Shown here: one piece after another, positions 91 to 64,000 of the stretch
Layout: the number at the start of each line of letters is the position of its first letter
How positions within the stretch are numbered: the first letter of the stretch is position 1
NCBI GenBank assembly: GCA_026874595.1
Contig: CM049310.1
Location: forward strand, 77,369,056 to 77,433,055
Direction of reading: 5' to 3'
Length of the DNA stretch: 64,000 bases
Source of the DNA: Sipunculus nudus
Taxonomy: Eukaryota > Annelida > Sipuncula > Golfingiida > Sipunculidae
Made by a program: the position numbers and the translations under genes
Notes under the pieces: model-generated
Database searches by the model: none
What the model was told of the DNA's origin: nothing
The model's input: only the letters and a program-made list of their open reading frames with translations

Positions 91-160
91 CACTGAAACA
101 TATACAAACTCCTGCTGAATTGCAGCGACCATTCCTGTTGCAGTTGTTCTTGCACTGAGG
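91..160 (-). CDS. M24 exon E (EGF-like), last exon in window
   Basis: 70 nt. PQCKNNCNRNGRC...CICFSG with donor GTGAGT, so the transcript continues beyond position 1 with a further B exon expected. Confidence 0.88.
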
Positions 161-512
161 CTACAAGAAAAGGGAATCATGCATCAGCTTTTTCAGTTCA
201 TTCATTGTTAAGATACAGTTAGCTTTCGCACAAACAATTTCAGTCTTTCCAGGAAAGGTTAACTGTAATACAACAAAGTGAAAATCTGGATTCACTCAAA
301 TCCTTTGTAAACCAGGCAATTACTACAAGTATGAGCTTGATGAGTAAGTAAACATGATTAACAGATCTATACATGAAAAGTCAGTGGATTCACAGTTAAG
401 GCATTTTTATACCTTTATCCATTACTTTTAGCTAAAGTTGATAACAATCAAATACAGTGACCCTAATTTTCATGGTCACTATGTTCAAGAAATTCTGATA
501 AAAAGCCCTTAC

Positions 513-743
513 CTTAGAGTCTGGGCAGTGTTTACACTGTATTGGGTACACTTCTACATTGCTGTAGCGTCTAGTTCCAGTCCTGCTCAGTCTGACCATA
601 TACCCATGTCTCCAGCCAAACGTGTACTCGTTGAGCCACCATGAGACTTTGGGCACTGGACAGTCTACTTTGTCTCGTGACAAAACAGTAGCCTTGGTCT
701 CCCGTACCATGCTAGTTGGTTGCCATACTCCCTTCAGATCTTG
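513..743 (-). CDS. M23 exon C
   Basis: 231 nt. QDLKGVWQPTSMV, CPVPKVSWWLNEYTFGWRHGY, YPIQCKHCPDSK. Confidence 0.9.
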
Positions 744-1577
744 CTGTTATGACAATTTCAATAAATGTTGATCAAAGACTTATATAAATGCATTGAGATT
801 TATGATTTTATTCTTTAATGATTAACCCATGTTTAATTCTCCTTTTTCTAAGCAGTATAAAAAAAGCTCCAGCAAATCACATTTTTACTTTGATGTAGCT
901 GTTTTTTTTAGAAATTTAATTGATATTTTAACTCTTATCACAATGAACCATTCTGTCTATTGAAATCCTGTTTCTCATACTGATGAAAAGAAAGAAAGTT
1001 AACAGATGTCTTCACGCATCAAAGACAGTCTTTTTTAATGACAGCTTCTGTGACTTTGTTCTTAATATGCATGAACAAAAGCTTTCATTGTGATGCCTTA
1101 TGCTGCAATTGAGATCCAGGATATTAAGTATTCCTTGTTTTGTATTAACATTAAACAGCCCAGCTCAATTCTGTGTTCTATAGATTATATTTCCTGAACC
1201 ATAATGGTAAGTTTATACCAGACTTTTCTATTGAAGGCACAGTCTAGTAATATATAAATACACCAGACCCTTGAATATCTGAACATTCAAGTTAATTATC
1301 TGAAAAATCATTTATCCAAATTTAGAATTAGGAAATTTATATTTATATTTAATTATTTATGAACTTATTTATTTAAAGGATATACTGTTCAAAGATGTTG
1401 GTTGTTTTCTTAACTGTTAAGACGACTATGGCACTATGGTAATGAAAATATTGAAAATACTGTAAAAAGCACAATTTATGCTGTCTTAAAAACAGGCTCA
1501 GGTGTTTATCTCAATGTAAAAGAACTAAAAAGGTGTATACTGCATTTGTTTTGAGTGTTATTTCAGCTGCTTCTTAC

Positions 1578-1753
1578 CTTCATGTATCTGATCTGGCAGG
1601 TGATATCAGCTGTGAGTTTAATATTGCTGACTTCCAGCTGCAAGTTTTCTGGGCACGTGTTGTCAGATCGACTGAGGATACACTCATCAGTCAGTACACG
1701 CCTGATGACCGGAGGCTGCGACAGTATGACAGAACAGTCCTCTCCAGTAAACC
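1578..1753 (-). CDS. M23 exon B
   Basis: 176 nt. GFTGEDCSVILSQPPVIRRV, DECIL, CPENLQLEVSNIK, RYMK at the end. Confidence 0.9.
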
Positions 1754-1879
1754 CTGCCAGAGAGCAGCCAAAGCCCATCAGTGGAATTTAAAAACAATAA
1801 AACTTTAATTATAAATGGAGAAATTGCTTGGGATGTCAAATAAGAACTTCTTGCAGAAAGTCAGGCTGCCAAGCACATC

Positions 1880-2230
1880 CTTGTGAAAAAATCGACAATA
1901 GTAGGATTTAATATGCAGAAAAAGTGGGACAAAAATAGGAAAAGTGTAGGAAAAGTAGGACAAAAGTAGGACAGAAACCACTCTCCTAAATTAATTATTT
2001 ATGCTCATTCCCAATAATTCTGAGAGCATATTTAAACCATTGTTATGGGTGCTCAGTTTGAATCTGTATTTTTGCTATTACATAGTGCTCTAAATTGCCC
2101 ATAACTGTTTACTTATTAGAAGACAAGACAATTTCAAAGCAATTCATAGCATTTTGAAATTGAATGCCACAAAGCAAAACAATAAAGTAGGTATTTTGAA
2201 GAAAAAGTAGGAAAAGTAGAAGAGAACAGG
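1880..2230. repeat. Low-complexity 'aaagtagga' tracts in intron
   Basis: The M23 E-B intron carries repeated aaaagtaggac/aaagtaggaaaag motifs near 1916-1970 and again near 2185-2222. No gene seen here. Confidence 0.5.
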
Positions 2231-2491
2231 GAAGACTGGTAAGGAGAAACCACACACAGGCATTATTCCTGTTATCTCCGTTTCCTGGGATATTCAAATT
2301 GCGTTTATTCTCAAGTTATATTTTAAACATGTCTAAATCTTGTAAAGTTAATACAAAGCAGTAATGCTATGTAGTTAAGGAGTTAAGCAGAATAAAACAT
2401 TTAAACTGCAATAAATTATTTATATTATTTCATCATCTTTTTTATATTGCCTTTTGCTGCATTGTTATACAACAAAATCTCTGATTCTTAC

Positions 2492-2561
2492 CAGGATGAC
2501 AGTGACATTTATTTGTGCTGTCACACTGACCGCGACCACTACAATCATTCAAGCAGGTGGG
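2492..2561 (-). CDS. M23 exon E (EGF-like)
   Basis: 70 nt. PTCLNDCSGRGQC...CHCHPG. Confidence 0.9.
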
Positions 2562-2906
2562 CTGGAAAATGAAAGAGATGTTATAAATGACATTTAGTTT
2601 TACATGATACACAGAGAAAGTTTATCAAAGACTTCATTTTCAAAAAAGGATCTCATATAAAATTAATCAAATAACACAATAGAAAGAATATAAATATATT
2701 CCATCATACATTTCAAGATTTTTGTTTCAGCATTTGGTTTTACAGGCTGTGGTGAGATTAGATTCTGGGACATTCGCCCTGAATACCACACTTCAACTTA
2801 ACTAGCCTTAGTCCTTATTTCTTCATATCAATACATGGCTTATATCATAAAATCTGTTCAACTAATTTAACACATTATATATCATTATGTATTTATTTCC
2901 ATTTAC

Positions 2907-3140
2907 CTTATCTGGCACACAGTGTTCACATTGGATCTGCCATACCACACGACTACTGTACAGTATGTTGTCTGTGGTCAGAGACAGCCTGTAGCCATGC
3001 TGGTGGCTGAATGTAAACTGGTTTAGCCACCATTTGGTAGGGGGCACCGGACATGTGACTTTGTTTGCGCTGTCTACCTGTGCTGTTGTCCTCTGGATTT
3101 GAGAGGTTGGCACCCAGGACCCACTGCCATCCAGGGCATA
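2907..3140 (-). CDS. M22 exon C
   Basis: 234 nt. YALDGSGSWVPTSQ, CPVPPTKWWLNQFTFSHQHGY, WQIQCEHCVPDK. Confidence 0.9.
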
Positions 3141-3594
3141 CTTGATGCAACAAGAATATAAGAATCAGGGGGTGAATATAACACAGTGAATAAATCAATC
3201 AAGTACTATTTTGATACCTATTTATTTAAATTACTGGTAAAACGTGCTAGTGCCGGTAAAACACCTGTTATTTACCACTATATAAATCAAGCATGACCAT
3301 GGGCAGACTGCAGCATACCATAATATCAACTGCAGTGTCTCTGCCATTTTTTTTTTTATTGTTAAGCATTACACTGGAAGTGATATGGAAAAAGTTTGAG
3401 TGGGTACTTTTTGCTTGACTTGGTGCATAATATTAGTAAAAGCATGTAATACTTCCACTGGTGTGAACAGAATTTTTCTAAGCCTGTTTTAATCAAAGTA
3501 AGAGCACTACTTTAGAGCAAACACTAAAACTAACCATAATTCCTAGCTATTACAGCATACATTTTGAATCCCACATGTTCTGTTTATGACTCAC

Positions 3595-3770
3595 CTGAAC
3601 GTAGACCACCTTGCAGGTGACGTTGTCTGTGGGGAGGATGTTTTTGACCATGACCTCTACCTTCTCTGAGCACACATCTCCCCGTGCCTTGAGGACACAA
3701 GGATCAGTGATGATCTGGACCAGCTGAGGTGCCAGTGTTCTGATGACGGAGCAATCAGAGCCATGGAAAC
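3595..3770 (-). CDS. M22 exon B
   Basis: 176 nt. GFHGSDCSVIRTLAPQLVQI, DPCVL, CSEKVEVMVKNIL, VYVQ at the end. The PP motif is AP. Confidence 0.9.
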
Positions 3771-4139
3771 CTGACAATAAATGTATTTAGCATGATTTAC
3801 TTGGATCCTAAAAGACTGAAAGATAACAGTTTCCAAACTTAACTTTTTATGATTAGAACATAGACATTTTAAAACATATTATTCTTCACATCTAAATTTT
3901 TTTTACAGGTACAAATAATTCCAAGGGTATGTTGGATACATACCATGTGCAGACATGGATTAATATTATAGCTACCACAATTTAATATTAATAATAGACA
4001 CCTATACATACATACATGTAGAATTATCAAAGATTAACTAAGATTTCATCTTAATCCCTACAGACCCCAAATTCAATCTTATTTCCAGATATTCCCTGGT
4101 TTGGATTATTACAGCACCAGTTTACCATTCAAAGGCTCT

Positions 4140-4440
4140 AAGATCCCCACTTGTCTGTAATGTCACAATTTTTTTTTTTTGTCCTATCTCTAAACATTAT
4201 GGCAACACTAATTGTGGTATGGTTGAGATGTCGCCACTTAACTAAGTCTTTACAGAAATGTTTAACAGTCCTTTATAGTAACTGCATTGCATCATGGGTA
4301 GAAATTCCTGAGCGTGATCGCCATCTTGTTGAGCGGTTTTCACGTGGCACTGTATGTTCAGCGTGTAATAAATAAGTCTGGAGTGTTGTTGACATTTGTC
4401 TTCTTGTCACGAACTCTACACTAATGCCCTAATAGTAACA
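4140..4440. other. Less AT-rich insert in intron, unclassified
   Basis: Sequence here is less AT-rich than its surroundings (for example 'cctgagcgtgatcgccatcttgttgagcgg'). Plus-strand 4151-4375 is open but has no recognisable domain. Possibly a transposon relic; I could not find its ends. Confidence 0.25.
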
Positions 4441-4526
4441 TTATCCCAGTTTGGCAGCATGCCCCGCGTTTCTGCGTAAAAAATAACGACTCTTGTATTG
4501 TGGATGAAGCACTCGATCATTCTCAC

Positions 4527-4596
4527 CTGAGTAGCAGTCACACACTCCAGGAGGAGCACACCGACCTTGCCCACTACAGTTGTTTGGACATTCAGG
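4527..4596 (-). CDS. M22 exon E (EGF-like)
   Basis: 70 nt. PECPNNCSGQGRC...CDCYSG. Confidence 0.9.
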
Positions 4597-4867: not shown

Positions 4868-5101
4868 CTTATCTTCCAGACAGTATTCACAAGTGATCTC
4901 ATAGACCTTGCTGTTGCTGGCAGAGCCGTCTCTGGTCAGAGTTACGCTATACCCATGGTTATGTCCATAGGTGTATCTGTTTTTCCAGGAACTGACCTCA
5001 GGTACTGGACACCGGACATCCTGGCTGCTGGAGACAATGGCAGTAAAGCTTGCCATGACACTTCCAGGTACCCAGTTATAATCCTTGGATCCAGGAACAC
5101 C
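4868..5101 (-). CDS. M21 exon C
   Basis: 234 nt. GVPGSKDYNWVPGSV, CPVPEVSSWKNRYTYGHNHGY, YEITCEYCLEDK. Confidence 0.9.
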
Positions 5102-5582
5102 CTGTGAAGACATAAGAATTCTCTTTGCTATTAATATGTCAAAATATACCTGGTGAAATTATTTTTGTTGGATCCATACCCTCCAGATTCCATATACCTG
5201 GTAAGTTTCTCCTGGAAACTAAGAAGCAAGTATATACTACAGATTTGGTGAACATCTTGTGTGAGGAAATTTTCTATCCATTAGCTAGATTAAAACTTCC
5301 CAGTATTACAGTTATATGCATTTTGCTGAGGAATTATATAACTATCACTTTAGAAGGTGACTGATGTTTATTTACTTTCCTTCCAATAACACGATATCTA
5401 TATGAGACAAGGACGGTCATACAATGTCTTTCTCTTTTAGCTTTATCATTTGGCATTAATACATTTAAGAATTACCTGTCTGGAAACAATGCCAAGTTGT
5501 CTGTAATTTTATATTGATATCATCTATGCAGGTCAACAGTTCAACACACAGTGGTATGCTCTTTGATGAAAAGTATACCTAC

Positions 5583-5758
5583 CTGCACATAAACAATGCT
5601 GCACTTGATGCTGTCAGTGGGTCTTACATTAGACACTTTAAGATCAATATGATCCCCACATGTGCTGGCTCTGTCTGACAGTCTGCAGGTTGGTGTGGTG
5701 ATGCTCCTGATGACAGGAGGCTGGCTTACAACTATAGAACAATCTGCTCCAGCATATC
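5583..5758 (-). CDS. M21 exon B
   Basis: 176 nt. GYAGADCSIVVSQPPVIRSI, PTCRL, CGDHIDLKVSNVR, VYVQ at the end. Confidence 0.9.
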
Positions 5759-6040
5759 CTGTTGTGAGAAAATAGTCATATAAAACTACCTTCAGGATAT
5801 TGTGCATATTGGTTTATGGCTTTGATAAAGCTAGGTTGTCAAATGATGAAGTCACTTGTGTGGTGTTGTATTTTTTTCATCCCTGTGAGCTTCCAGTTAA
5901 GTGAAAAAAAGATTTTTTCCTTCTTGTATAAAATTCCTTTTTTTCTATAGATATGCCTTAAGTCCTTTGATATAGCGAATTGACATCCATTATTGTCATT
6001 CTATACATGCTTTTTTTATAATATATAGATAAATTCTCAC

Positions 6041-6110
6041 CATAGTCACAAACACAGTCTGAAGGAGGTGCACATCTCCCTCTACTGCTACAGTCATTTG
6101 GACACTTTGG
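6041..6110 (-). CDS. M21 exon E (EGF-like)
   Basis: 70 nt. PKCPNDCSSRGRC...CVCDYG. Confidence 0.9.
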
Positions 6111-6304: not shown

Positions 6305-6538
6305 CTTTTGAGCAGCACAGAAACTGCAGTGTATGGTGTATTTGGCTGAGTTGCTGAAGGTCACATTGTCCTTGGTGAGCTGGACTTGGTAACCATGGTT
6401 ATTGCCATATGTAAATCGGTTCATCCACCAAGCTTTCTGAGGTACAGGACACCTCACGTTATTTGGTCCTGTGATTTGGCCTTTCTTAGTCTGTGTCAGA
6501 GCTGTTACTGTCCAGGATTTGTCACCCTCTGTACTTTG
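6305..6538 (-). CDS. M20 exon C
   Basis: 234 nt. QSTEGDKSWTVTAL, CPVPQKAWWMNRFTYGNNHGY, YTIHCSFCAAQK. Confidence 0.92.
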
Positions 6539-6957
6539 CTGCATGAAGTAAAATAAAGTGTATAAAGATATTATTAGCATTATTATTATTTTCATTATTA
6601 GTATTAACTTGCTAGGAAAATATTATCTAAATATTAAAATAATATTAAAAATGAAAATTATCATCTGATTTATATAAAAATTATACTGGTAAAATTACAT
6701 GTATGTGATCAGTAAAGCCCATCTGAATTATATGACACAAACTACCTCAATTAAAACCTACACACACATCAAACTGAACAAGTAATAAAACCCCAGAAAG
6801 ACTTAAGTAACATTTGGAGAATATTCAGAAGTTTTAAAATTGCCACAAACCTTTTTTTTGTTACTATGTCCTCTTATTGTTCCAGAAAGGAAGATTCCAG
6901 GTTATTTAATTAAAAAATTTTCCACTATTATGAAATATCAACTTGTACATTGAGTAC

Positions 6958-7133
6958 CTTGATATGTGTAACCCTGCAGGTCACACTGTCTCCCTGGTGG
7001 ATATTCCAGGTCTCAAGATCCAGGACCTCAGGGCATTCCTGTCCCTGGTCATTGAGTACACAAGGGCGGGTCATTATAGACACTATCCTTGGAGGATGTC
7101 CCTTCACCACTGAGCAGTCAGCACCCTCATATC
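6958..7133 (-). CDS. M20 exon B
   Basis: 176 nt. GYEGADCSVVKGHPPRIVSI, RPCVL, CPEVLDLETWNIH, ending THIK. LETWN replaces the usual L.VSN strand and HIK the usual YVK; still open. Confidence 0.9.
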
Positions 7134-7371
7134 CTTAAAAATTCAATGAATCATTAAGTTAATATCTTATGAGCCAATCTATATGTTTCACATGGTCTTC
7201 TTTATAACAAGGCCTACAGGCCTAATGTGAACCTGTGCAATCAGAAATACACCAGGTATAATGCTTCAATGCTGGACTATTCCTTTTCAAGTACATGTGT
7301 AATATGTATATGAACAATGCAAGTACTAAACATTTTGAACAAGAAACAATTATACAAACATCACTGCTAAA

Positions 7372-7745
7372 ATTGTGGCATAGGTGCACACAACACAAAA
7401 ATGATTGTAGCTGGCACCACCGGTCTTGTATACAACTAACTTTCAGAGATATATACATATGCCCAATTTCAGACTGACATGTCAAACCCCTCCTGAGAAA
7501 TAAGCAGTAACATACACTGTGGGAAAATTATTGTAGGTGGCACCACCGGTCTTGTACACGATAAAGCTATCTGTTATGTATAAATATGCTTAATTTTAGG
7601 TTGATATATCAAATTCCTCCATAGAAATAAGCAGGCACATACACTGTGCAAAAGTCATTGTAGGTGGCAACACTTGTCTTGAAAACTCAAACAGATTCTA
7701 ACATAAAAAAAATTGACAATTTTGACAAACTCATCCCACACCCAC
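7372..7745. repeat. Short satellite, three copies of about 127 bp
   Basis: The motif gtaggtggcaccaccggtcttgta recurs near 7406, 7533 and 7660 and 'cctcc..agaaataagc' near 7489 and 7616, giving a period of 126-127 bp. It lies in the M20 E-B intron. Confidence 0.8.
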
Positions 7746-8049
7746 CAAAACTCTTTTTCTCCTCTCAACTGGCACCTTACACTTTCCAAATCACAACTAA
7801 AAACATAGTCATTATGCTATCCACATCTTCCATGATACTTCAGTCACCAATATGTTAACATCACCCCCCACCCCCCACCATGCATCAGAAAATTACCACT
7901 TTAGAATTTCAGGAGCGAGCTTCATAAGCTTTAAGTAGCTTGCGCTCGATCTATTGATACAAGTTTATATTTATATATGTGCTTAGGTAGAATACCACGT
8001 GAATGTACTTACTATGTATTGTGTCAATAAATCATTCAAACAAACAAAC

Positions 8050-8620
8050 AAGAAAGCCATCAATGATGCATAGACAGGTCAAAATATCAGGCCAATACAC
8101 CAAACTTCCCTTGAGTTTGATGCACTGGGCTGACCAGGCTCAGGTGAGAAAGGCAGTTGCCCCGAGTGAACTGTGACAAATTGCTAGCTCAATTGCTAGA
8201 GTGAACTCTTGACCTGCACCTGGCTAGACTGAGTGAACCTTTGACCTGTACCTGGCTGCACTGAGTGAACTCTTAACCTGTTGCATAATCTGACAGTTGG
8301 CAGTCTGCCAAAGCTATAAATAGATCCTGACTGACCTTTGGGGCCAAATCCGATTCAGTGGGCAGTCTGGCAAAGCCATAAATAGAATTTGGTGATGCTA
8401 ACTCCTGCCATTTTCAAGATAGTATGGGTTAACGTACAGACGATGGACGCCGGCTGCCGGACGAGAGAGGACGGATGCCGCCACACCATCGCATAAGCTC
8501 ACAGGTTTGCTAAAAATTGCTTACAGTTCAAAACACAAGGAGACCATGATGCACATATAATTTTTTCTGGTAGTTCTACATGGAGAGCGTACCAGAGATG
8601 CATGTGACACCACCACCTTC
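8050..8620. repeat. Unclassified dispersed-repeat-like block
   Basis: Contains internal direct repeats: 'gagtgaac.(c/t)ttgacctg.acctggct' near 8200-8275, and 'ggcagtctg(c/g)caaagc(t/c)ataaatag' near 8297 and 8361. A GC-rich stretch with an ACGG-like flavour follows at 8436-8490. No coding potential recognised. Confidence 0.45.
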
Positions 8621-9017
8621 TGGCAGGTATCATAAGTACATTCAAATGTGATTTGTTACTGAACATGATATTGTAATATAATAGGTGTTATATCCACTGA
8701 ATTTATTACAACATGTACTTACAGGCTACTATATTGAAACACACTGTCCATCTTATATGTTTAAATAATACAAACCTGTTTCTCAAATACTCTTTAACTA
8801 CATCAAATTCTTTGCTGCTGAACATTTTTAACACAAATTCCCACTTATAAAGTGATTAGAATATCATGTAACCCTTAACCTACATATTATCATGTTTGTT
8901 TAAAAAACATGGCACCTGTATACAAGGTTACTGTGAACATCATGCAATAATTGAAGACTGCTGTCAAATTTTAAATAACTACTTGTAATATCAAATTCAT
9001 AATATATTTAGGCCTAC

Positions 9018-9087
9018 CTGCATTACACACACAATTTCCTTCAGAAGAACATTTTCCTTGTCCACTGCAGTCATTGGGGCATTCAGG
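9018..9087 (-). CDS. M20 exon E (EGF-like)
   Basis: 70 nt. PECPNDCSGQGKC...CVCNAG. A 1.9-kb repeat-bearing intron follows. Confidence 0.9.
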
Positions 9088-9573: not shown

Positions 9574-9804
9574 TTTGTCTGGGGTACAGAAATTGCAGTT
9601 CATTTCAAACACTTTTCTGTTGCTGTATGTTGAATCATCCTTGGTCAGGCTTATCTCATATCCATGTAGCTTGCCGTATGTGAACTGGTCTACCCAGGCG
9701 TTGGTCGGAGGCACAGTACACTGTACCCTGCCCCCACTCATCAGGGCAGCCTTCTCAGTACGTGTTACTCCTGATGGCAGCCATTTATTGCCACTCTGGT
9801 CCGG
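9574..9804 (-). CDS. M19 exon C
   Basis: 231 nt. PDQSGNKWLPSGVT, CTVPPTNAWVDQFTYGKLHGY, FEMNCNFCTPDK; ends in AAA before GTAAAG. Confidence 0.9.
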
Positions 9805-10450
9805 CTGAGAAATAGACAGGAAATGGGTTTGCTATACATACTATGAGTGAACAGTGCATTAACTCACCATGCGGTTTCAAGGTTTTGATGGTATTTTGTA
9901 TCAAACATAAGTGGGTGTAACTACATGCCATGTTACCTTACTGGTCCTAAAGTAAAATTTAAATAGACACTGATGAAATATTCTTTACGGTCTTCTTCCA
10001 GAATTAAAGTACATATCCCAGAAGATACCATTACTGCTCACAGGGCTTACTTGAGACTGGCACCTACACCTGTCTCATATTGCTAGCTTCTCTGAGGTTA
10101 ATCATTCTGCATATCTACTACGTTCAGGACTTCTATTGTTCTAAACCCTACAAATTGATAGAGATACAATGAAAACTGAGAAACATATTAGGCTTATCTT
10201 TAATGTATATATAAAAATATAAAACAGGTTTGAAGAGCAGAGCTTCAAACTCTAGATGATGACTCTAGTCATCTTCAAAGAAGTTGAAAAGAAGTCAAAT
10301 CTACCATAAGAATTTAGCCTGTGTATTTCTGTTGTAAAATGATAGGTACTTGACCCAAAATATAAGAAAAATACTTCCACTGAAGTGCAGTGTTTGATTG
10401 ACTCCCTCAATGAATCTGAAAGATCATTAACACCAAGTCATGTTACATAC

Positions 10451-10626
10451 CTTGACATAAACCACTCTACATGTGATATCATCTGTGGGTTTGACATTGG
10501 TGACCTTTAAGTCCACCGTCTCAGTGCAGTCTGTCTCAGGGTGTGGTAGCTGGCAGCTGGGTGTCAGGATCTGTACAATGTATGGTGGCTGAGCTGCTAT
10601 AACTGCACAGTCTTCACCAGAATATC
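10451..10626 (-). CDS. M19 exon B
   Basis: 176 nt. GYSGEDCAVIAAQPPYIVQI, PSCQL, CTETVDLKVTNVK, VYVK at the end. DCSV is DCAV here. Confidence 0.9.
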
Positions 10627-11078
10627 CTGCAAAAAAATAAAGGGAAAACTCATTTAATAAAAAAATGAATTTTAAGTCTTTATATGCTGAAAAGTTCAGA
10701 TTGATACATCTGAACTTAGTCAAAATATACCCCTGCAAGCCACTGAGATTATAATTTGAACAAAAAATATCCAAACAGAAATAATCCAAATAAAAACTGC
10801 CAATGTGTGTCCCTGTATTTAAATGTAGATTAATATTTACTGACTTTTTACAAACAACTAAAGCTTGAAATGCAGCATATCATGCACAAAAAAATAAAAA
10901 GAAAAGGCAGTATGCCTTGGAAATTGCTTGATAAGTGTAATATGTTGGATCATAATTCCAGGTATGTTAAACTTATTTCACTCTATTATAACTTTGAGTG
11001 TATTACTGTTATCAGTTAGAGCTTTGTTTCATGCAAATTCCCTAAAAAAAGAAAAATCAGTATCAATATACACCTTAC

Positions 11079-11148
11079 CAGTGTTACAAATACATTTTCC
11101 TGATGCTGCACATCTACCATGGCCACTACAGTCATTGGGACATGTGGG
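11079..11148 (-). CDS. M19 exon E (EGF-like)
   Basis: 70 nt. PTCPNDCSGHGRC...CICNTG. Confidence 0.9.
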
Positions 11149-47286: not shown

Positions 47287-47290
<4 letters not shown>

Positions 47291-51567: not shown

Positions 51568-52814
51568 CTGTACAAAGAAGTAAGTAATATTAAGTAATTC
51601 ATCACATAGAGAAGCTATGAACACAATTAATAGCAAAGCATAATCACTTTAAAGATAATGAAAGATAACTCACAGTCAGACAGAGGACTTTTGAAAAGGG
51701 GGAAAACATGTGGACCCAAGTGAACCAGAAATGTCCTTTATACATAACTATCACCTGCAGAAATAGGGAAATACACAGTGCCAGATGCAAAATTGTGGGA
51801 CTTTTTTTGGTACTAAGCATGGATTTTTTTTTACTATTTTTCATATTTCTTGGTCAAAAAGCTAACAGTGCCCAACATAGCACAAAATGTATCAAGAAGC
51901 CATGGAGACAAAATCTGCCCCTGTTATATGCATGGGGTAGTTTGTTATAAGGTTTGTGATACTGCATGATATTGATGCAGGAAAACCAGAAAAAGTGTAC
52001 AAGAATATACTGTTAGACATTTGGCCTATTTCAGAGGTTTTAGTAAAATGGCAAAACACTGATGATGTATCACCTTAAAAGCCCTGGCCTCTGTGATGTG
52101 AATAACTTTGACTTATCACTTTACCTTTTGCTTGAAAATTTTAGGGCTATTTTCAACTTATTAAATTCATATCTTACAAATTTTATATATGATACTTTTG
52201 GCAATTAATTTTGAGGGCAAATGACAAAACTGAGGTTTATCCATCTTGAGAACCCTGTAACATGGTCACAATTTGTGTCAAATTGTTATTTCTAATTTAC
52301 AAGCAAAAATATGTTATTGTAAAAGATATACTGTGGTTGTCTTAAAGTTCCCGAGGGTTTCAAATGAACAATATTTGTGACAGGGAAACTATCGAAAACA
52401 TACAATTTTTGTGAATAAGAGGTCCCCACATGGAAGGCATGTCGAAAGGTAACAGACTGATATTAATTGTTAATATCAACAGATCTTGTTCGTTCAAAGG
52501 TTGCTATTATAAATGGTATCAGATTGTCTCAGACCTTTCAGCCAATTGATGTTCCCTTGGCCAATACCAAATTATTAACTTTGAGCACATATTTGATATA
52601 ATTAATTCATACAATAATGGTTTACTTTGTGTAGGTGTATAATTATTGTGAGATTGCAAAATTGAAACCTTGTGACACACTAAAAAAGTGGAAATCGCAA
52701 AAAATAAACCCCGTGAACATGAAGCCAACCACAGTATATGACAAAATATCAAGTGTTATCATTACACAGGAAAGCATGATTATTTCTTATTTTTACAACT
52801 ATATTAACACCTAC
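51568..52814 (-). other. 1.2-kb intron, nothing recognised
   Basis: Between the M3 B and C exons. AT-rich, only short open frames on either strand, no repeat ends or RNA signal seen. Confidence 0.6.
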
Positions 52815-52990
52815 TGAAGCATATTTGGTTATGCAGTTGACTGGTGTCTGTGGGTCATAGTTGCTGACTTGTAAGACCAGTGTGGTGGGACAAGTCCTTG
52901 ATCTGTCATTGACAGTGCATGGCTCGGTGAGAATTCTGGTGATTATTGGAGCTGTACCCTTCTGGACAGAGCAGACAGACCCAGTGTAAT
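52815..52990 (-). CDS. M3 exon B
   Basis: 176 nt. The codon split over the E-B junction becomes GAT, so the motif is DYTGSVCSV, with D for the first G and V for the usual D before Cys 6. Then IITRILTEPC, CPTTLVLQVSNYD, and KYAS at the end. Still open and correctly spliced. Confidence 0.88.
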
Positions 52991-53322
52991 CTGATAAAGA
53001 AAAGAAACAATAAGCAAATGTATGAATTATAAATAGAAAATGTACACAAATACTGCACAAGCAACAATAGTAATAGGTAATGGTTATTTATTTTTTTTTA
53101 ATATTACTTTAAAAAAAACAACATGGATTTCAGACCTTTAAAATTTAAACAAACTCACTGCCATGACCTGCCAGAAAACCTGGTCCTCACAGAGCATATC
53201 AAAAGACAAAGGAATGAGAAATGTTTATGGTGGTTATATTATACTTAAAAAAATGAACTAGTTAACATATGTACTCTGACCTCAAGGACCTTTCAACATG
53301 GTAAAAAAAGATGAACTCATAC

Positions 53323-53392
53323 CTGGTTCACAGATACACTTGCTTTCATAGTTGCACCTTCCATGCCCATTGCAGTCATCAACACAAGTAGG
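53323..53392 (-). CDS. M3 exon E (EGF-like)
   Basis: 70 nt. PTCVDDCNGHGRC...CICEPG. Asn replaces Ser after the second Cys. Confidence 0.9.
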
Positions 53393-53908: not shown

Positions 53909-54130
53909 TTTGGTGGCTGAACATCTTTCACAGGTGATCTGGTAAACTTTCTCTCTGCTGCTCAGACCATTTGCAACCACCACCATCTGGTATCCATGAT
54001 CACGGCCATAGGTGAACTGGTCATACCACTCACTGACCGCTGGCACCTCGCACTCTATGTGGCCCTCACTGGTCACCCGAGCTCTTGAATCCCTCTTCAC
54101 AGTATCTGTTGTCCAGGTTTCATCTCTTTT
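53909..54130 (-). CDS. M2 exon C
   Basis: 222 nt. KRDETWTTD, CEVPAVSEWYDQFTYGRDHGY, VYQITCERCSATK. The exon ends in AAA before donor GTGAGT. Confidence 0.9.
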
Positions 54131-54555
54131 CTGTATTTAAAATTTGAAATATAAGAGCTGACACTTTTTTTATTAGACAGATAAAATCTCAGAATGTCAC
54201 TGACAAATTCAACAAAATGTCCTTATTATCAAATAAGAAAGAACTATCAAGAATAACAAAAGTTTAAAGTATATACATGTATAGCTTAAATTGTACATAA
54301 AATTAGAATCCTTCCTTAACCTGGTAACAGGTTTTGTCAAATATGAGTTACGTAAAGAATGTGATTTCTTTGAAGTATATAACTTCCTGAAGTTCATCAC
54401 TGGCAGGCTAATCACATTACAAGATAAAATCATGCTTCTTTGGCCCCCTTTAATTTATATCTTACACAAACATCTTACATGATTCATTAGGCATTTTTTA
54501 AGGTAACTTAATTTGATTTATCAATTTTACAATCAGGTTTGGTTGTTCCACTTAC

Positions 54556-54731
54556 CTCAACATATCTGACCTGGCACTGAATGGAGCCCTGCTTATCAAT
54601 GTTTGAGACGTCAAGAGTGACCTTTGTGGGGCATGATGTTTGCTTGGACGACAGACGACAGGGGCTGGTTATAATTCTTTCTATGACAGGGGGCTTGCCA
54701 CTGGTAACTGAACAGTCACTGCCACCATTTC
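54556..54731 (-). CDS. M2 exon B
   Basis: 176 nt. GNGGSDCSVTSGKPPVIERI, SPCRL, SCPTKVTLDVSNID, RYVE at the end. Asn replaces the usual Tyr/Phe of GY.G, which in other EGF domains packs before Cys 6. Confidence 0.9.
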
Positions 54732-55049
54732 CTAGAATTGATATATAAAGACTGTAATGTAAAATGTTTGTAATTTTCATCTTTGTATATATAATTTTTT
54801 GGGAACAACTTCATGTCTCTGGTATCCACCAATCATTCCAGTTAAGCATGTTCAGGAGCATCCACTTGTTTTTAGTGACAAACTGTGATGAACTGCCATC
54901 TATCAAGGGTTAGAGTTTATTACAATTATGTCCTGAAGTATTTATATTCTGCAAAATTAATTGTCATTTATCACAAATATCATGTACTAAATTTCCACAA
55001 CTCTGTGTAAGTTCGTTATCTGATGATCAGTGACAGAAATGTAATCATA

Positions 55050-55192
55050 CTCAGAGATTAAAGCGGACCGAACTGTCTCGCTAGTGAAGCTTGCTTTGCT
55101 AGCAAAGCGGTTAGTACTCCGTACCTGTGCGCCAATGTTAAAGGTTTGAATCCAGGATGGGCCCAATTTTCCCCTGAGCAATTTGTCTTAGT

Positions 55193-55249
<57 letters not shown>
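55050..55249 (+). mobile_element. tRNA-derived SINE-like element
   Basis: TAGCAAAGCGG at 55100-55110 fits the Pol III A box and GGTTTGAATCC at 55143-55153 fits the B box, 43 bp apart. A full cloverleaf is not supported because the T stem does not pair, so a functional tRNA is unlikely. The unit runs into an AT tail. Confidence 0.6.
55197..55249. repeat. (AT)n tail
   Basis: About 53 bp of AT dinucleotides directly after the SINE-like body. Confidence 0.9.
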
Positions 55250-55254
<5 letters not shown>

Positions 55255-55470
55255 ATACAGATATAGTAAATGAGGATCAGGGGGAACATACCCTGCTTAT
55301 CTTTAAAGACTGTTATGTCATAAATACTTAACCATGCTCAACATTCATTTGTTTAAACCAATATAACAACCTTGTAGTACATTTCACCTTTTTTATGGAA
55401 ATACATATTAGGCAAAACAAAGCTTTGTTATACTACCACAAATAATAAGTATAATTATGAACATTCATAC

Positions 55471-55540
55471 CTAATTCACAAATACATTTGCTCTGTGCAT
55501 TGCATCTGCCGTGACCACTGCAGTCATTAGGACAGTTAGG
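55471..55540 (-). CDS. M2 exon E (EGF-like)
   Basis: 70 nt. PNCPNDCSGHGRC...CICELG; donor GTATGA. Confidence 0.9.
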
Positions 55541-56248: not shown

Positions 56249-56470
56249 CTTTCTTGCAGGACAGAAAGCACAGTTGATGTTGTAATGTTTTGTATTGCTG
56301 GTTTGTCCTCCAGAGATGATCTTCAAAGCATAGCCATGGTCGTTACCAAATGTAAACTGGTTCAACCACTGAACCACTGCGGGGATCCTACACTCCACCT
56401 TGTCAGCCGCCTTGGCAGATCCATCCCATGTCCAACTCTTCCTTGATTCTAACCATTTACCATCTTCTTT
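56249..56470 (-). CDS. M1 exon C
   Basis: 222 nt. KEDGKWLESR at the start, CRIPAVVQWLNQFTFG, HGYALKIISGGQTSN, and NINCAFCPARK at the end. The CPVP motif is CRIP here. Confidence 0.9.
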
Positions 56471-56679
56471 CTGTGAAAATATCTTGTATATAAGGTACTA
56501 GATCAACCCCTAATGGAAAATTTCCTGGTTATTATAATCACAAACTCTAAGATCTATATAATGATATGCTTCTGTCCTTTGATTAGTGAATAACAGACAT
56601 ATTAATAATATGATCAATGGTGTAATCTTTTTATGCTTACAGACATGCTCCAATCTTATGAGACAAATGCCCCCGCCTG

Positions 56680-58250
56680 GGGCAAATTAGAAACATTTGT
56701 TAAATTTTGTAAAATGTTTTAAGTTCAGGAAGTGTTGTATGGTCAAAAGTAGGTCAACAAGGGCAAAATGCAAACTCGATCTGTAAAGGGTCATTATCAA
56801 GCAACAAACCAAAAATCAGGCCAGTATCTGCAGGCATTGTGAAAAAAAGTCCATATATGTGCATTTTTCATGAAAATTTCTGTCTTTCATGAAATTTTCT
56901 ATGTTCAGGATCTGTCATATGGTGAAAAATAGGTTAACTGGGACGAAACGCTAACTCGATCTGTAAGTGGTCATTATGCGCCCACATACCAAACATTAGG
57001 CCAGTATCTGTAAGCATTGTATTGCGAAACTAGAATATTAGCAAAAGTTGATAATCATTTATAAATTTAAATTGGAGAGGTATATACCATGTTTCATAAC
57101 AATCCACCAAATGCTTCCTGAGAAATAAGCTCCTAAGTTTTTTTCTATACTAAGCTCTGTGATATTGAAAAGTAGGTCAAGATCACCCATCTTTGAACTT
57201 GACCAAGATTTTGTAAATATAATGCAATAGCACTGAAGAAATGAAGTTCCTGTGTTGAATACCTTTAGAGATATCCTGCACAAAAGGCCAAAATTGAAAA
57301 AATCCGATAAAATTTCATTAAAAAATCAGAAATTGCAGGTGGCACCACCAAAATTGTGCAGCACATACAGACCATCAGTCCCAATGATCATAGTAGGTTT
57401 TGTGAAATTCCACACAATGGTTCCTGAGATATAAACTTCTTAGTGTTTTTCTATAATCAGCTCTAAAATGTAGAAAAATGGGTCAAGGTCACCCATCTTC
57501 GAACTTGACCGAGATTTTATCAATATACTTCTTCACTGATGAAATAAAATTCCAACGGTGAATCCTTATAGAGATATCCCGCTCAAAAGGTAAAAGTTAA
57601 CAGATGCGAAACGGACAGACGGACGGACGGACAGACACCGGACAGACAGATGGACAGAAGGACAGCTTGGGTGACGACAATAGCCCATCAGCTTATGAGC
57701 TGAGGGCTAAAAACGGCTGTACATGTGTATTTGTCATGAAAATTTCTATTTTTCATGAATTTTTCTTAGTTTAGGAGCCGTAAAACGGTCAAAAGTAGGT
57801 AAACCGGGACGAAACGCGAACTCGATCTGTAACTGGTCATTATCTGCCCACACACCAAAATTCAGGCCAATATCTGCAGGCATTGCGAAAAAAAGTCCGT
57901 ACATGTGTATTTGTCAATAAAATTTCTATTTTTCATGAAATTTTCTAAGTTTAGGAGCCGTAAAACAGTTAAAAGTAGGTCAACCGGGACGAAATGCGAA
58001 CTCAATCTGTAACTGGTCATTATCTGTCAACACACCAAAAATCAGGCCAATATCTGCAGGCATTGCGAAAATAAGTCCGTACATGTGTATTTGTCATGAA
58101 AATTTCTATTTTTCATGAAATTTTCTAAGTTTAGGAGCCGTAAAACGGTCAAAAGTAGGTCAAGCGGGACAAAAGGCGAACTCAATCTATAACTGATCAT
58201 TATCTGCCCACACACCAAAAATCAGGCCAATATCTGCAGGCATTAAGAAA
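56680..58250 (+). repeat. 180-bp tandem repeats (five of six units)
   Basis: Units begin 'catatatgtg/gtacatgtg' near 56852, 57719, 57899 and 58079, with a divergent partial unit before 56850. Spacing between the last three is exactly 180 bp. A sixth unit is at 60888-61067, after the nested insert. Confidence 0.85.
57031..57713 (+). mobile_element. Nested insert 1 (dimeric repeat, ACGG tract)
   Basis: Breaks a 180-bp unit. Two halves share 'ggtcaaggtcacccatcttcgaacttgacc' (57173-57210 and 57481-57515). Ends with an ACGG/ACAG tract near 57611-57665 and 'gcttatgagctgagggctaaaaa'. A related 'gtcaaggtcatccatcttcgaacttgacc' lies near 46086 in another intron. Confidence 0.65.
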
Positions 58251-58251
58251 A

Positions 58252-60883
58252 CAAGGGACCTATGGGTCACGACGCTCAGCTGTTATATATGATAAAAAAA
58301 TATTATTTAGAAATGAGGCACATGCTGGTTTTGTGTGGTAATAAATATAAGCTGTATTATGAGTTGTTGTTGTTTAGCTTATGTATGATTTTGATAGTAC
58401 CTTTGGAGACAGGGAAGAGGATTGATTTCATTTATTTTATTAACAAATGGAGTACTACTGTCACACAGATTTTGACTTGGCCATATAACTTATAAGCAGA
58501 ACATATAATATAAGAGTTTAACTATTTATTAAAAAAATTACAAATATTGTCCCAAATATAATTTTTATTAAAAATAATAAGAGAATCATATGATTTTTTA
58601 AAATGAAATATAATTGATATGATTATTAAAATAATATTAAAGAATATATTCATGAATGCATTCATGAATACATTTTGAAAGTATTTGCACGAGTATTCAT
58701 ATACTTTCATTTTTACCTGAATTCCCATTCTTTATGCAAGAAATTTTATAATGGAGTACATAATCATATTCGTATTTAAATACAATTACAAAGTATTCGC
58801 ACCATGTCTGGTATTTATTCAGTTTTCACCAAACAATGATGTTGAGAATCCAGAATATACAAAATTCACACATTTAAATAATGATCATAAGTACCTGGTT
58901 TTATGGCTTTTATTTATATAAAAAAATAACTGTAAAAAATTCATTTTGGACTAATTTCACATCAATGTACACACTAGACACAGTAGGAATCTAGATTAAT
59001 ATTATCAACTGCATCTTTGTCTATCATTAATTTCCTTCATATAATCCTTAATGATTAGTAATGAATAATATGATTTACTTCTTTATCATTAAAAATGAAC
59101 TGAAAAATGCCATAGGTGACTGCATGGTGTTATTTGGAATATGTGACATTCTACCCATCGATACAAGATTCTAATATCATCAGTAACTGCAAGTTAATTT
59201 CCTGTTATTATAAACTAACAAATTCCTTTTCTATTTTTCTTTAATTTGTTATTAAAAACCAATAAAAATTTATTAATTTATTGTTTATTGTTATGTTGTT
59301 GGTTAAAACTACTAGATGAGTTGGGTTGAACACCTGGATCAACTGTGGCTGGCCAACAGCTGCCTGGATTCTCCCCTCAAGCGTGCATAATTTGATGAAA
59401 GGTCAACAAGGTCAACATACAGGTGACTCAAGAGGGGCTGGAGAGAGCCAAAGTCTGACAGGGTCTCATAAAAAACATTAATATAAGCTACAATATTTGG
59501 CAAATTTCTTTCAGCTTTCTAAACTAAAAAGCTGAAATCCTTATGTGTGCATGATATGAAAATTATATCAACAGTGCTCACAGGAAACAAACGTGCCATG
59601 GTCACAGTTGGGCAAAATTTAAGGTACTAATTTTATATTTATACTAATAACTTATAAAATTTGAAAAATTCAGAACTAATTTTGGGTATTCAATTGAATC
59701 TTGATTAAATAATGTTACATCCCTGACAAAAAAGATCTCTAGCTTCAGCAATGCCCTTGTTAAGGGAGTAAATATATTTCTTGATTTTTTACAAAGTGCA
59801 TTATGTTTGGGCCCATAACTTAAAAAAAATACACAATACTGACATCATTTCTGGCATGTGCATAGTGAATGTATAGAAAAATATGTATATTATATATGAT
59901 CAAAGTCAGATCAGTGGTTTTGATATTAGACAGTCTTAAAGTGTAACATTGGGTTTTTAATGGAAAAATTAAGTTTTTCATTGATATCTCGAAGGAATTA
60001 AGTCCTAGTGACCAAATTCTTGGCATGGTAGGGGATTTTGGAGAAATCTAACTGTATGCCAAATTTAAGGAACTTAGAGCTGAAGCTCGGGAGCTGAGCT
60101 CTAGCAAACTGCATAACACTAGCAATATGTGACATGGTGCTTGAAAACTTGAATAAAATCTACAGTTTTTGATCAACTGGTTTCAAATTTTTAACAGTGT
60201 TAACAGTCGAAATGCTAACAAAAACATGCTGTGAAAATTAAATCCACAGCAGTTACAGCAAAAAAACGTGCCATGGTCAAAGTTGGGCAAAATTTAAGGT
60301 ACCAATTTTTTATTTTTGCTAATATTTTTAAAAATTTAAAAGATTTTGATCTAATTTTGGGTATACAATTTAATTTTGATTAATAAAAGTAATATTACTG
60401 GAAAAAAAGTGCTTAGCTTTAACAAGTTTTGTGTTAAGTGATAAAATTTCTTTCCTGATTATTTAAAAAATGCATTATCTTTGGGCCCATAACTTTTTTA
60501 AATTAAATAATACAGACCTAATTTCTGGCATGTACATAGGAATTATATAGAGGATTATTTATAGGAAATATGAGGAAAAACAGATGAGTGGTTTTGATAT
60601 TAGGCAGTCCTAAAGTGTGAAAATAGGTTTTTAATAAAAAATTGAGGTTTTTCCTTAATTTCTCAAAGGAATGAAGTCGCAAAGACCCAGTTTTTGGCTT
60701 GGTAGGAGATCTTGGGGACATCTAACATTATGCTGAATTTTGGATTCCTAGGTCTTACGGTTTCAAAACGTGCCACATCTACAGACGGACGGACGGACGG
60801 ACGGACAGACGGACAGACGGACGGACGACGGACAATGGACCACGACTATAGCTCAGATGACTTATAGTCAGCTGAGCTAAAAA
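58252..60883 (+). mobile_element. Nested insert 2, same family as 30952-34167
   Basis: Starts 'caagggacctatgggtcac' with GCTCAGCTG and ends 'gactatagctcagatgacttatagtCAGCTGAGCtaaaa', as at 30952-34167. The interrupted 180-bp unit resumes in register right after it. Its 3' half again holds two related units (about 59510-60075 and 60180-60760) and an ACGG tract at 60782-60832. The 5' half differs from the other copy. Confidence 0.65.
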
Positions 60884-61440
60884 GTCCGTACATGTGTATT
60901 TGTCATGAAAATTTCTATTTTTCATGAAATTTTCTAAATTTAGGAGCTGTAAAACTGTCAAAAGTAGGTCAACCGGGACGAAACGCGATGTCGATCTGTA
61001 ACTGGTCATTATCTGCCTACACACCAAAAATCAGGCCAATATCTGCAGGCATTGGGAAAAAAAGTCTGTACAACTGTTTGATTTCGGAATGACGGAATGA
61101 CGGACATGGGTAAAACTATATGCCCAGGCCACTTTGTGGCGGGGGCATAAATAGTCACTGACATTTATATTTTTCAATGACACATAAATATACAGAATTG
61201 ATCAACTCAAAGTTAAACACTTGAAAAACTGTGGTCTTCTCTTTTTTTATAAATATAGGTCAATGTGGCCAGAAACTGTGTGAAGGGCAAATTTAAATAT
61301 CTAGTTATGGTGGTTACAGTTTGTGGCCTACTTACTGATGTCAAAAGGGATGGAATGATGTTGGACAAAGATCAATACTTCATTATACCTCGGGACTGAA
61401 ATTCATCTGAGCTTATGAACACATTAAAAGTGAATATCAC

Positions 61441-61616
61441 CTTGACGTAGGCCACATGACAGATGACCTTCTCTGAGGGGTCAAAGTTGGAGACGGTCAA
61501 GATGACTGAGGTGGCACAAGAGTCCGACTGTGACTGGAGAGTACATGTTGCTGGGCTGACAGACTGAATGACGGGAGGCTGGTTCTCAACAACAGAACAG
61601 TCTTGGCCTTTATGTC
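61441..61616 (-). CDS. M1 exon B
   Basis: 176 nt, phase 1-0. GHKGQDCSVVENQPPVIQSV, a Cys pair ATC and SCAT, VSNFDPSEKVIC, then AYVK. His replaces the usual Tyr after the first Gly. It has no in-frame ATG and was found from the splice sites and motif. A transposon-filled intron of about 5 kb separates it from its C exon. Confidence 0.9.
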
Positions 61617-62150
61617 CTGAAGAATAAAAACACAGAAAATTTTAATATTTACAAAAGTTGAAACAAAGAACTCATTAAACCCACATGAATCCATAACAGG
61701 GTTTAATTTGGCAACATGTATTAATGTTATCTGCATATTTTTCCAAGTATATGCAAATCTGGAGCTAGCAAGTTCATGGTAAGCATTATTTATATTAAAT
61801 CTGCATGATTACACAGTAAGACTTAATTTATATGAATATTTGTGCTAAATCTTCATTTTCAGTGGCTATAGATATGCATCTTCAATTGTTCTTATGGCAA
61901 TGGCATTACACTTGATGATGATCAGGATTACCAAAATTATATAAGTTTTACCATGATATATGAAAAAGTATCAAAAATATAAAGGTTGACAAGAAATGGG
62001 TGCAATAATTAGCAATTAACAAAAACTTTGTCCAAGGATTTTAGTGATAATTCTTCTCAATTTATTTAATACTGAGAATGATAAACTTCAATGAAGTATA
62101 ATAATAGTGAAATCAAAATAACATATATATGATAAGTTTATCAACCTCAC

Positions 62151-62220
62151 CTGGATGGCACACACATTCACTTCTATAATTGCATTTTCCATGACCACTG
62201 CAGTCATTCAGACACTTGGG
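62151..62220 (-). CDS. M1 exon E (EGF-like, Cys 1-5)
   Basis: 70 nt, phase 0-1. Reads PKCLNDCSGHGKC...CVCHPG. The last G codon is completed by the next exon (61441-61616). Confidence 0.9.
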
Positions 62221-62590
62221 CTGAAAAGCATAAATGCAACAATAACATATCAATCATTTTGTCATCTTATCTATCTCACCTTACTCATGCTGCACTGTAC
62301 GTATTCCTATCTTAGTAAGATATTCAGAATTCTGACATAATAACATTTATACAAGTACATTTAACTGCTTCAAACTTTGCTCCTTAAATACTGTAGAATA
62401 AGGAATGTGTGTTCATAAATAGATCTATTGGTACACTGCTATACCTATGTCATATGAAGAAATGATTTTCTATTTCATGTATACATCTCATAATAATTAA
62501 AGCCAATAAAAATTAAATTTACTCAAAAACAAGTAAAATAACTGGAATTTCTTGGCACTGCAGGTGCCATAGTATCCCAAGACAATGATT

Positions 62591-62615
62591 CCCCCTCCCC
62601 CCCCCCCCCCCCCCC
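62591..62615. repeat. Poly(C) run (C5-T-C19)
   Basis: Homopolymer C tract in the intron between the M1 E and M0 C exons. Confidence 0.9.
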
Positions 62616-62694
62616 ATTTAAGAACAGACCCCATCTTCAGCAACATATGCTGATACTTGGCAAGCAACCATGGTTTTTTCCATCTATCAACTTG

Positions 62695-62985
62695 ACAATA
62701 TTTTTCACCAAATATGGGTATATCCAAGGTCAAGGCGACTCTCATAGGAGAGGTCATGATCCCAATTTAAATATATTCAAACAAGAAAAGGACAGGTGGA
62801 CCCACCTGTCTTCCACAGAAGACAAAGCTATCAAAGATCTTCATTCAATTTGTTTTTGGGACCAATCCATGCATCCCTTATTGAGATATATTTAAGATTT
62901 TGTGTGATTTTTACCAAATACAGAAATATTCAAGGTCAAGGTCACTCTCATAGGAGATGTCATGACCCCAATTTAAAAATACATC
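62695..62985. repeat. Two-copy repeat of about 206 bp with 'aaggtcaagg' words
   Basis: Words 'accaaata...aaggtcaagg(c/t).actctcataggag(a)(g/t)gtcatga(t/c)cccaattta' recur near 62707 and 62912. No coding content. Confidence 0.65.
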
Positions 62986-63184
62986 ATCCCATAACCCATA
63001 ACTATGTATATGCATAATATGAAGGAAATATGTCTGTTAGTTTTTTTACTTATAATGCTCATAGTACTGTCAAGCGGCAATGATGGGGTATTTAAAGGGT
63101 TGAAAACAGTAGGACAGAAGGTGGGGTCACCTTTTTTCTTTGTCTTCTATTTGACTCCTAACTGCTCTATTTTCAACAACTTAC

Positions 63185-63406
63185 TTGTGTATCTGAGCAG
63201 AAGGCACAGTTGATGTTGAAGCGTTTGGCTTCACTGGTTTTACTACCAACCACTATCTGCATTGAGTACCCATGACTGAGTCCGTAAGTGTAATCATCAA
63301 GCCAGGTAGTGACCGCTGGGACTGGACATTCCACTTTGCTGACAGGTTTTGCTGTACCCTTGAAACGGTATGTCTGCTCACCTTCTGTCCATGTTCCACC
63401 AGTTTT
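63185..63406 (-). CDS. M0 exon C
   Basis: 222 nt, phase 0-0. Starts KTGGTWTEG; then CPVPAVTTWLDDYTYG, HGYSMQIVVG, and ends NINCAFCSDTQ before donor GTAAGT. The NINCAFC ending is shared only with the C exon of M1, so M0 and M1 look like a recent pair. Confidence 0.9.
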
Positions 63407-63884
63407 CTGATTATGACATACTTTGGTTTTTATATAAATAAATTAAAAATATACATTACTTATATAAATTTTATATATCCCATTTTTCATAATGAGGTAT
63501 AGGTTAACTACTAGCAAGTTGCTCATCCTGAAAAACTGATTCATCCACTCCTTTTATCTGAACAAGGATTTACTTCTTACCAAATTAATTCAAAATTAAA
63601 CTTTAACTTATCATTTTTGTATCAGACTCATCAAATATGATAGAAAATTCTAATATGATAATACTTGTTCATCAAAGTACTTGCACAAATGAACAAATTA
63701 TATTATTTTTTAGATGAAACAGCAAGTCCAAAGCTGTTTCATTTAATTATAAAAATGACCACTGTTATAGACATTTTTCATATGTAACTTGAGACTTCTC
63801 AAGCTGAGCAACAGAAACTTAATTAGTACAAGACACTGTAAATGATAATACTGCTCAATCTTACTTTTAAATGATCACACTCAC

Positions 63885-64000
63885 CTTGACATACTTGACT
63901 ACACACAAGACATCATCCCGTGGGTCATAATTGTTGACTGCTAGAGTGACACTTGTACCGCATGTGTCTGTTCTGGCCTGGAGAGCACAGCTGGGAGGCA
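63885..64000 (-). CDS. M0 exon B (partial at window edge)
   Basis: Only the last 38 codons are visible; the DCSV start lies past the window end. Seen: PPSCALQ, DTCGTSVTLAV, NNYDPRDDVLC and a final KYVK, then donor GTGAGT. The NNYD motif is the block-I form of the usual VSN.D. Confidence 0.85.

Follow-up and report, generated by a model that had tools for sequence, protein, structure and literature searches.

The stretch of Sipunculus nudus DNA analysed here (64,000 nucleotides; assembly GCA_026874595.1, contig CM049310.1, hereafter C5, positions 77,369,056-77,433,055), referred to below as the window, is occupied by the middle part of a long array of a three-exon module, in which exons designated E, B and C encode an EGF domain followed by a second, six-cysteine domain (B+C). 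Iterated profile searches on the six-frame open reading frames (ORFs) of at least 15 aa identified 24 E, 24 B and 24 C exons on the minus strand, which corrects the strand of an earlier, sequence-only reading of this DNA, and these exons follow one another in strict E-B-C alternation with E-values of about 3e-10 to 2e-29. The same searches returned no E, B or C match on the plus strand at E<=0.01, and ten dinucleotide shuffles, scored on both strands at this threshold, yielded a total of 0 E, 1 B and 0 C matches against the real 24/24/24. A tRNA scan of the window returned no genes. Hemocyanin, the single marker used for a molluscan source, had no match, an absence that carries no information on origin.

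The E exon is 70 nt long in all 24 instances, and the intron phases are 0 between C and E, 1 between E and B, and 0 between B and C. The spliced reading runs for 3,758 codons without a stop, while the other two frames carry 155 and 275 stops (counted in a shorter splice version of 3,713 codons). For two C exons, those at 39114 and 17606, a donor 6 nt beyond the one used looks better, and moving to it in both extends the reading to 3,762 codons. The profile searches, the spliced frame and the controls thus bear out the sequence-only reading in its account of 72 exons in unbroken E-B-C order with no stop. As to its further claim, that no splice site had been lost, AG/GT boundaries are possible for every exon except on the 5' side of a B exon cut by the window edge; the C exon at 2907-3140 has a sole AG without a clear pyrimidine tract. 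Several C exons offer more than one in-frame AG, and for these the AG behind a pyrimidine tract was taken. The window contains 23 complete modules, a B-C pair truncated in its B at the right edge, and an isolated E at 91-160, so that the 24 or more copies previously counted are found for each exon type but not as complete modules, the whole array amounting to 43. The features, all assigned by profile match and splice signals and given in window positions, are as follows.

91-64000, minus strand: middle of the array, 72 exons, modules 16-39 and the E exon of module 40, of 43 (numbering from the module tree described below)
63185-64000, minus strand: cut module, B 63885-64000 (cut by the edge), C 63185-63406
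56249-62220, minus strand: module, E 62151-62220, B 61441-61616, C 56249-56470
53909-55540, minus strand: module, E 55471-55540, B 54556-54731, C 53909-54130
51346-53392, minus strand: module, E 53323-53392, B 52815-52990, C 51346-51567
49030-50446, minus strand: module, E 50377-50446, B 49938-50110, C 49030-49254
47402-48694, minus strand: module, E 48625-48694, B 48052-48227, C 47402-47623
43428-46946, minus strand: module, E 46877-46946, B 44273-44448, C 43428-43649
41109-42810, minus strand: module, E 42741-42810, B 41841-42016, C 41109-41330
39114-40731, minus strand: module, E 40662-40731, B 39949-40124, C 39114-39329 (better donor 6 nt on)
37221-38632, minus strand: module, E 38563-38632, B 37855-38030, C 37221-37442
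34940-36473, minus strand: module, E 36404-36473, B 35840-36015, C 34940-35161
29057-34251, minus strand: module, E 34182-34251, B 29968-30143, C 29057-29284
26772-28756, minus strand: module, E 28687-28756, B 27895-28073, C 26772-27002
23728-26287, minus strand: module, E 26218-26287, B 24255-24430, C 23728-23955
21881-23251, minus strand: module, E 23182-23251, B 22650-22825, C 21881-22105
19526-21316, minus strand: module, E 21247-21316, B 20645-20820, C 19526-19759
17606-18944, minus strand: module, E 18875-18944, B 18372-18547, C 17606-17827 (better donor 6 nt on)
14910-17117, minus strand: module, E 17048-17117, B 16266-16447, C 14910-15140
11784-13160, minus strand: module, E 13091-13160, B 12405-12580, C 11784-12008
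9574-11148, minus strand: module, E 11079-11148, B 10451-10626, C 9574-9804
6305-9087, minus strand: module, E 9018-9087, B 6958-7133, C 6305-6538
4868-6110, minus strand: module, E 6041-6110, B 5583-5758, C 4868-5101
2907-4596, minus strand: module, E 4527-4596, B 3595-3770, C 2907-3140 (acceptor without clear tract)
513-2561, minus strand: module, E 2492-2561, B 1578-1753, C 513-743
91-160, minus strand: E exon of the next module, whose B and C sit left of the window

The genome searched comprises 1.43 Gb in 153 contigs, and the flanks analysed span C5:77,339,056-77,369,055 and 77,433,056-77,608,055. Protein searches found matching exons on the same strand in both flanks, confirming that the window cuts the array at both edges. 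The profile order over 77,339,056-77,600,055 (the 261-kb locus) includes 43 C, 42 B and 41 E exons, to which a further B (77,535,098-77,535,268, found by similarity to a partial copy of the gene lying upstream) and a likely further E (77,514,025-77,514,117, recognised by its cysteine pattern only) can be added. With 43 C, 43 B and 42 E exons located in total, the array reads as 43 modules over ~217 kb. Splice signals in the expected phase are present in 43/43 C, 42/42 B and 40/41 E exons; the one E that departs from this is the first, which forms part of a longer exon. The number of cysteines is constant in 40/40 E, 41/42 B and 42/43 C exons scored, and both exceptions fall in the last module, where one cysteine has been lost in B and one gained in C. 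The 125 module exons amount to 6,608 codons, and all placed exons sum to ~7,800 residues, with a signal-peptide first exon not found among them.

The EGF domain is split across two exons, with five cysteines in E (in all 40 exons scored) and the sixth provided by an invariant cysteine near the start of B. This six-cysteine EGF pattern is matched by curated models, scoring 29.1 bits against EGF_Teneurin (cut-off 24.3) and 24.0 and 23.1 bits against EGF_2 (cut-off 22.1) for the two modules whose EGF is complete, and the EGF part is an ordinary one. The B+C part comprises ~115 residues with six cysteines, three in the rest of B and three in C, bringing the total to 12 per module. Seven positions of the C exon are invariant in 24/24 copies, among them the three cysteines, one tryptophan and an HGY motif. 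No Pfam model matched B+C above cut-off, either with 24 C and 23 B exons searched singly (leaving aside the cut B) or with three modules spliced, and a profile built from 10 of the 24 spliced B+C pairs matched no PDB chain. A whole module compared with the PDB returned 22 chains up to E 10, mostly in the EGF part and with the reelin EGF as the best hit (E 0.0048); SecA chains aligned to the C part, none better than E 0.45, were taken as chance. NCBIfam searches with four proteins and a PHROGs search with one returned no families.

AlphaFold2 predictions, made on the single-exon halves in the window rather than on spliced B+C, show short beta strands with a mean pLDDT of 80.8 for C and 78.1 for B. 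A Foldseek search with the C half gave 148 matches at E<=10 but none at E<=0.001 (best E 1.7). Models of half-domains cannot decide the fold of B+C, which is probably a disulfide-rich beta-sandwich. The proposal of a single compound module is supported, and in the description of that module as EGF plus beta-sandwich the first half is documented by curated models while the second is backed by two half-domain models only.

The exons preceding the first module include the end of a VWD domain (PF00094, 24.8 bits against a cut-off of 22.9, at L018:7978-8199) and further head exons shared with a paralogue described below; by exon order, the EGFs come after the VWD domain. An exon at 77,589,390-77,589,728, first considered as the N-terminal exon, has no counterpart in the paralogue. 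At the other end, the last C exon is directly followed, in phase, by an exon encoding a hydrophobic helix (hydropathy 3.47) that ends in KKKK, and this membrane exon is followed in phase 0 by a 474-residue tail with a stop codon (C5:77352741-77354162). Ser makes up about 19% of the tail, Gly 16% and Thr 12%, and no Pfam model matches it above cut-off. The translated tail contains repeated SSQVT(S/T)W motifs and, next to the membrane, a run of basic residues, features that may serve as sites of phosphorylation and of binding to the cell cortex. The very large extracellular protein of the sequence-only reading is probably anchored in the membrane with a cytoplasmic tail.

A paralogue 62 Mb away, at C5:14.99-15.02 Mb (14986056-15030055), follows the same plan in the same order, with VWD exons, 11 E-B-C modules, a membrane exon and a charged tail. 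It is 34% identical to the main gene over the post-VWD exon, and four more head exons match at E ~1e-6 or better. A partial copy just upstream of the main gene, at C5:77.64-77.69 Mb (77637056-77687055), repeats the head (VWD exons) and the first modules with about 70-87% DNA identity; it has few modules, and one of its C exons carries an in-frame TAG. One C exon pair between this copy and the main gene is identical (0 differences), perhaps through gene conversion. Comparison of the 5' part of the main gene with the partial copy, over 12 shared exons of the N-terminal modules (599 codons, none of them from the window), gave dN 0.046, dS 0.154 and dN/dS 0.30 (bootstrap 0.20-0.45); the pair 77641751/77467928 was left out because its members are not positional counterparts. 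The 5' part of the gene is under purifying selection. The window modules are on average 40% identical to one another (range 22-64%), too low for a dN/dS test among them. The strong selection initially proposed agrees with the constancy of the cysteines and with a dN/dS that is not near 1, although that ratio pertains to N-terminal modules outside the window.

A FastTree phylogeny (midpoint-rooted, support values not printed) was inferred for 53 modules, encompassing the 11 of the paralogue and 42 of the 43 at this locus (module 3, which has no B in the profile order, was omitted). Module 1 joins paralogue module 1 and module 2 joins paralogue module 2, while modules 4-43 cluster apart, with neighbours tending to group. 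These groupings indicate that the two arrays seem to have grown separately.

The reading that we favour, with a probability of roughly 0.55, is that a single gene at this locus encodes a giant extracellular tether, anchored in the membrane and nearly 8,000 residues long. The plan supported by the exons has VWD at the N-terminal side, 43 modules, one membrane-spanning exon and a Ser/Gly/Thr-rich tail. Judging from typical domain sizes, the stacked modules would form a stiff rod, a few hundred nanometres long, that projects from the cell surface; the VWD head, placed at the outer end, may bind or oligomerise with matrix or neighbouring molecules, and the tail may link to the cell cortex; by analogy with Dumpy in flies, the protein would bear tension between the epithelium and the overlying matrix. 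The array would have grown as three-exon units, with phase-0 introns at their borders, were duplicated in tandem, and an array of this kind can gain, lose or skip an entire module without a change of frame. More tentatively, and with less confidence than in the tether itself, these genes may represent an undescribed class of giant membrane tethers, in which a VWD head is followed by EGF and a new disulfide-rich beta-sandwich, outside all curated families, repeated N times, and then by a membrane helix and a Ser-rich tail. In such a class N would be free to change, since each module is a phase-0 three-exon cassette, and would set reach or binding, perhaps together with module-level splicing. 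If the array forms one transcript, its product would be one of the larger extracellular proteins anchored in a membrane, and this genome would offer a natural pair, with one cassette repeated 11 and 43 times between the same two ends, in which the relation of module number to reach and mechanics could be tested. With 43 and 11 C exons, an extracellular domain outside the Pfam copy searched is present at least 54 times in this genome.

Several points weigh against the favoured reading. No signal-peptide exon was recognised at the N-terminal side; the exon at the start of the VWD domain scores 16.7 bits and the paralogue VWD exon 22.4, both below cut-off, and this locus is not among the matches listed in a genome-wide VWD search in which 150 of 284 candidates were scored. 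Three expected exons of modules 3 and 4 are absent from the profile list, of which two turned up by other routes, leaving one E unlocated, and a gene border could lie within an intron near modules 2-3 that is up to ~40 kb long. The beta fold of B+C draws on the half-domain models and their best Foldseek E-value of 1.7, the function is assigned by analogy, and the single transcript is a prediction from sequence.

This last point bears on how many genes the locus contains. All eight head and tail exon queries match only themselves in the 261-kb locus, and this single occurrence of the tested head and tail exons favours one gene, as had been claimed, with an array larger than the window. A division of the array among two or more transcripts of neighbouring genes would accommodate the long introns at the 5' side, of up to ~40 kb, and the partial copy of the 5' part just upstream, but we regard it as improbable in view of the single set of head exons and the single membrane/tail end, and of the 90 module exons, from 77,355,501 to 77,360,018 and on through module 5, that run without a gap in the profile order. 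Somewhat less unlikely is a single gene with module-level alternative splicing, in which E-B-C blocks would be skipped and most mRNAs would be shorter, with variable reach or binding specificity. The scored module borders are in phase 0 (43/43 C ends and 40/41 E starts) and the two paralogues differ in module number (11 vs 43), as this explanation would have it, yet tandem duplication leaves the same phase symmetry.

Other alternatives concern what the array is for, or whether it works at all. As an immune surface receptor, its modules would bind microbes or self/non-self ligands, and their duplication would have been driven by recognition instead of mechanics. The diversity of the modules (mean identity 40%) is compatible with such a role, but their cysteines and key residues are nearly invariant; we consider this option doubtful, slightly more so than several neighbouring genes. 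By far the least plausible explanation is a decaying, unexpressed array, to which the in-frame TAG and the few modules of the upstream partial copy could point: the 72 window exons have no stop and intact splice ends, the cysteines are constant, and dN/dS between copies is 0.30.

The window contains several repeats. In introns, a 180-bp tandem repeat at 57719-58255 (3.0 copies, 92% match) has a further copy ~2.8 kb away (60879-61077), and two copy pairs of a ~660-675 bp repeat lie 26 kb apart at 32817-34007 and 59527-60734 (families D4, D6, D7, D11 and D12). A GAC/GGA-rich run followed by a common motif occurs at 15976-16058, 34086-34168 and 60802-60884 (family D13, 63-76% alike), and similar translated runs in ORFs of the flanking loci suggest that this family is a dispersed repeat. 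Perfect AT microsatellites are found in introns at 21537-21613 (38.5 copies) and 47205-47286 (41 copies).

Giant modular EGF surface proteins are a known general kind, but the module and end domains described here matched no described protein in the searches of Pfam, NCBIfam, PDB and the literature; literature searches aimed at this architecture gave no title or opening of an abstract describing it, a result that does not extend to animal protein databases and so leaves room for an existing description. Teneurins and reelin resemble the array by EGF type only (EGF_Teneurin, 29.1 bits against 24.3; reelin EGF, E 0.0048), and the B+C profile matches no PDB chain. Oyster transcripts annotated as VWD and EGF domain-containing are reported, in the accounts cited, to respond to disease and CO2 stress (PMC9892467, PMC5457604).

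The nearest family is that of VWD plus EGF (VWDE-like) proteins. VWDE, for which a role in vertebrate blastemas has been described (PMC9117669), likewise has a VWD domain followed by EGFs, but it is described as a secreted class, with a D10C domain in vertebrates, whereas both this gene and its paralogue have a membrane exon and tail, and this gene carries 43 compound modules. Vertebrate VWDE may carry the B+C domain between its EGFs. Ig_VWDE (PF25776), taken as a VWDE marker from its name, had no match in the N-terminal exons scanned, though the domain could be present without one, and its sole genome match, on C1, scored 20.9 bits, below the cut-off of 28.1. D8C_UMOD (D10C) had four weak genome matches, none at this locus, whose 5' end is incomplete, and 2/14 control genomes also match below cut-off. 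Because Ig_VWDE and D8C/D10C were not found at the locus and a membrane helix is present, we do not file the gene as VWDE. Elsewhere in the genome, three of the D8C_UMOD matches (C5:42925686, C10:31916714 and C7:63068723; 22.0-24.5 bits, cut-off 27) each lie within ~40 kb of a VWD match and may mark VWDE genes, and the region C1:57625890-57739354, which combines weak post-VWD exon matches (E 0.04 and 0.09) with the Ig_VWDE match of 20.9 bits and VWD, is a candidate for another VWDE-like locus.

Two further systems provide comparisons at the level of function. Octovafibrin of octopus egg threads is described as a 135-kDa protein with 29 tandem EGFs and lectin domains at both ends (PMC10336842). 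It shares with the present gene its tandem EGFs, there in a load-bearing extracellular fibre, but as far as that description goes it has EGFs only between terminal C-type lectins, whereas here EGF alternates with B+C between a VWD domain and a membrane helix; no lectin was found in the end exons scanned, among which VWD and EGF were recognised and the first exon was not located. Drosophila Dumpy, according to the account cited, is a huge extracellular protein with more than 300 EGFs and 78 coding exons, its EGFs interleaved with a 21-residue DPY module in EGF-DPY-EGF units, with a transmembrane domain and a ZP domain near the C-terminus, and it holds the epithelium to the cuticle (PMC2930355). 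Dumpy and the protein predicted here share numerous EGFs that alternate with a private module, a transmembrane domain close to the C-terminus and a large number of coding exons. In contrast to Dumpy as so described, the intervening part here is B+C, with ~115 residues and six cysteines, and the last module directly adjoins the membrane exon in place of a ZP domain. The gene is thus not a Dumpy member, as its second module and C-terminal domain differ, and the remark of the sequence-only reading that it knew of no described protein with this architecture at this copy number applies to this module but not to giant proteins of EGFs plus a private module, of which Dumpy is the closest functional analogue.

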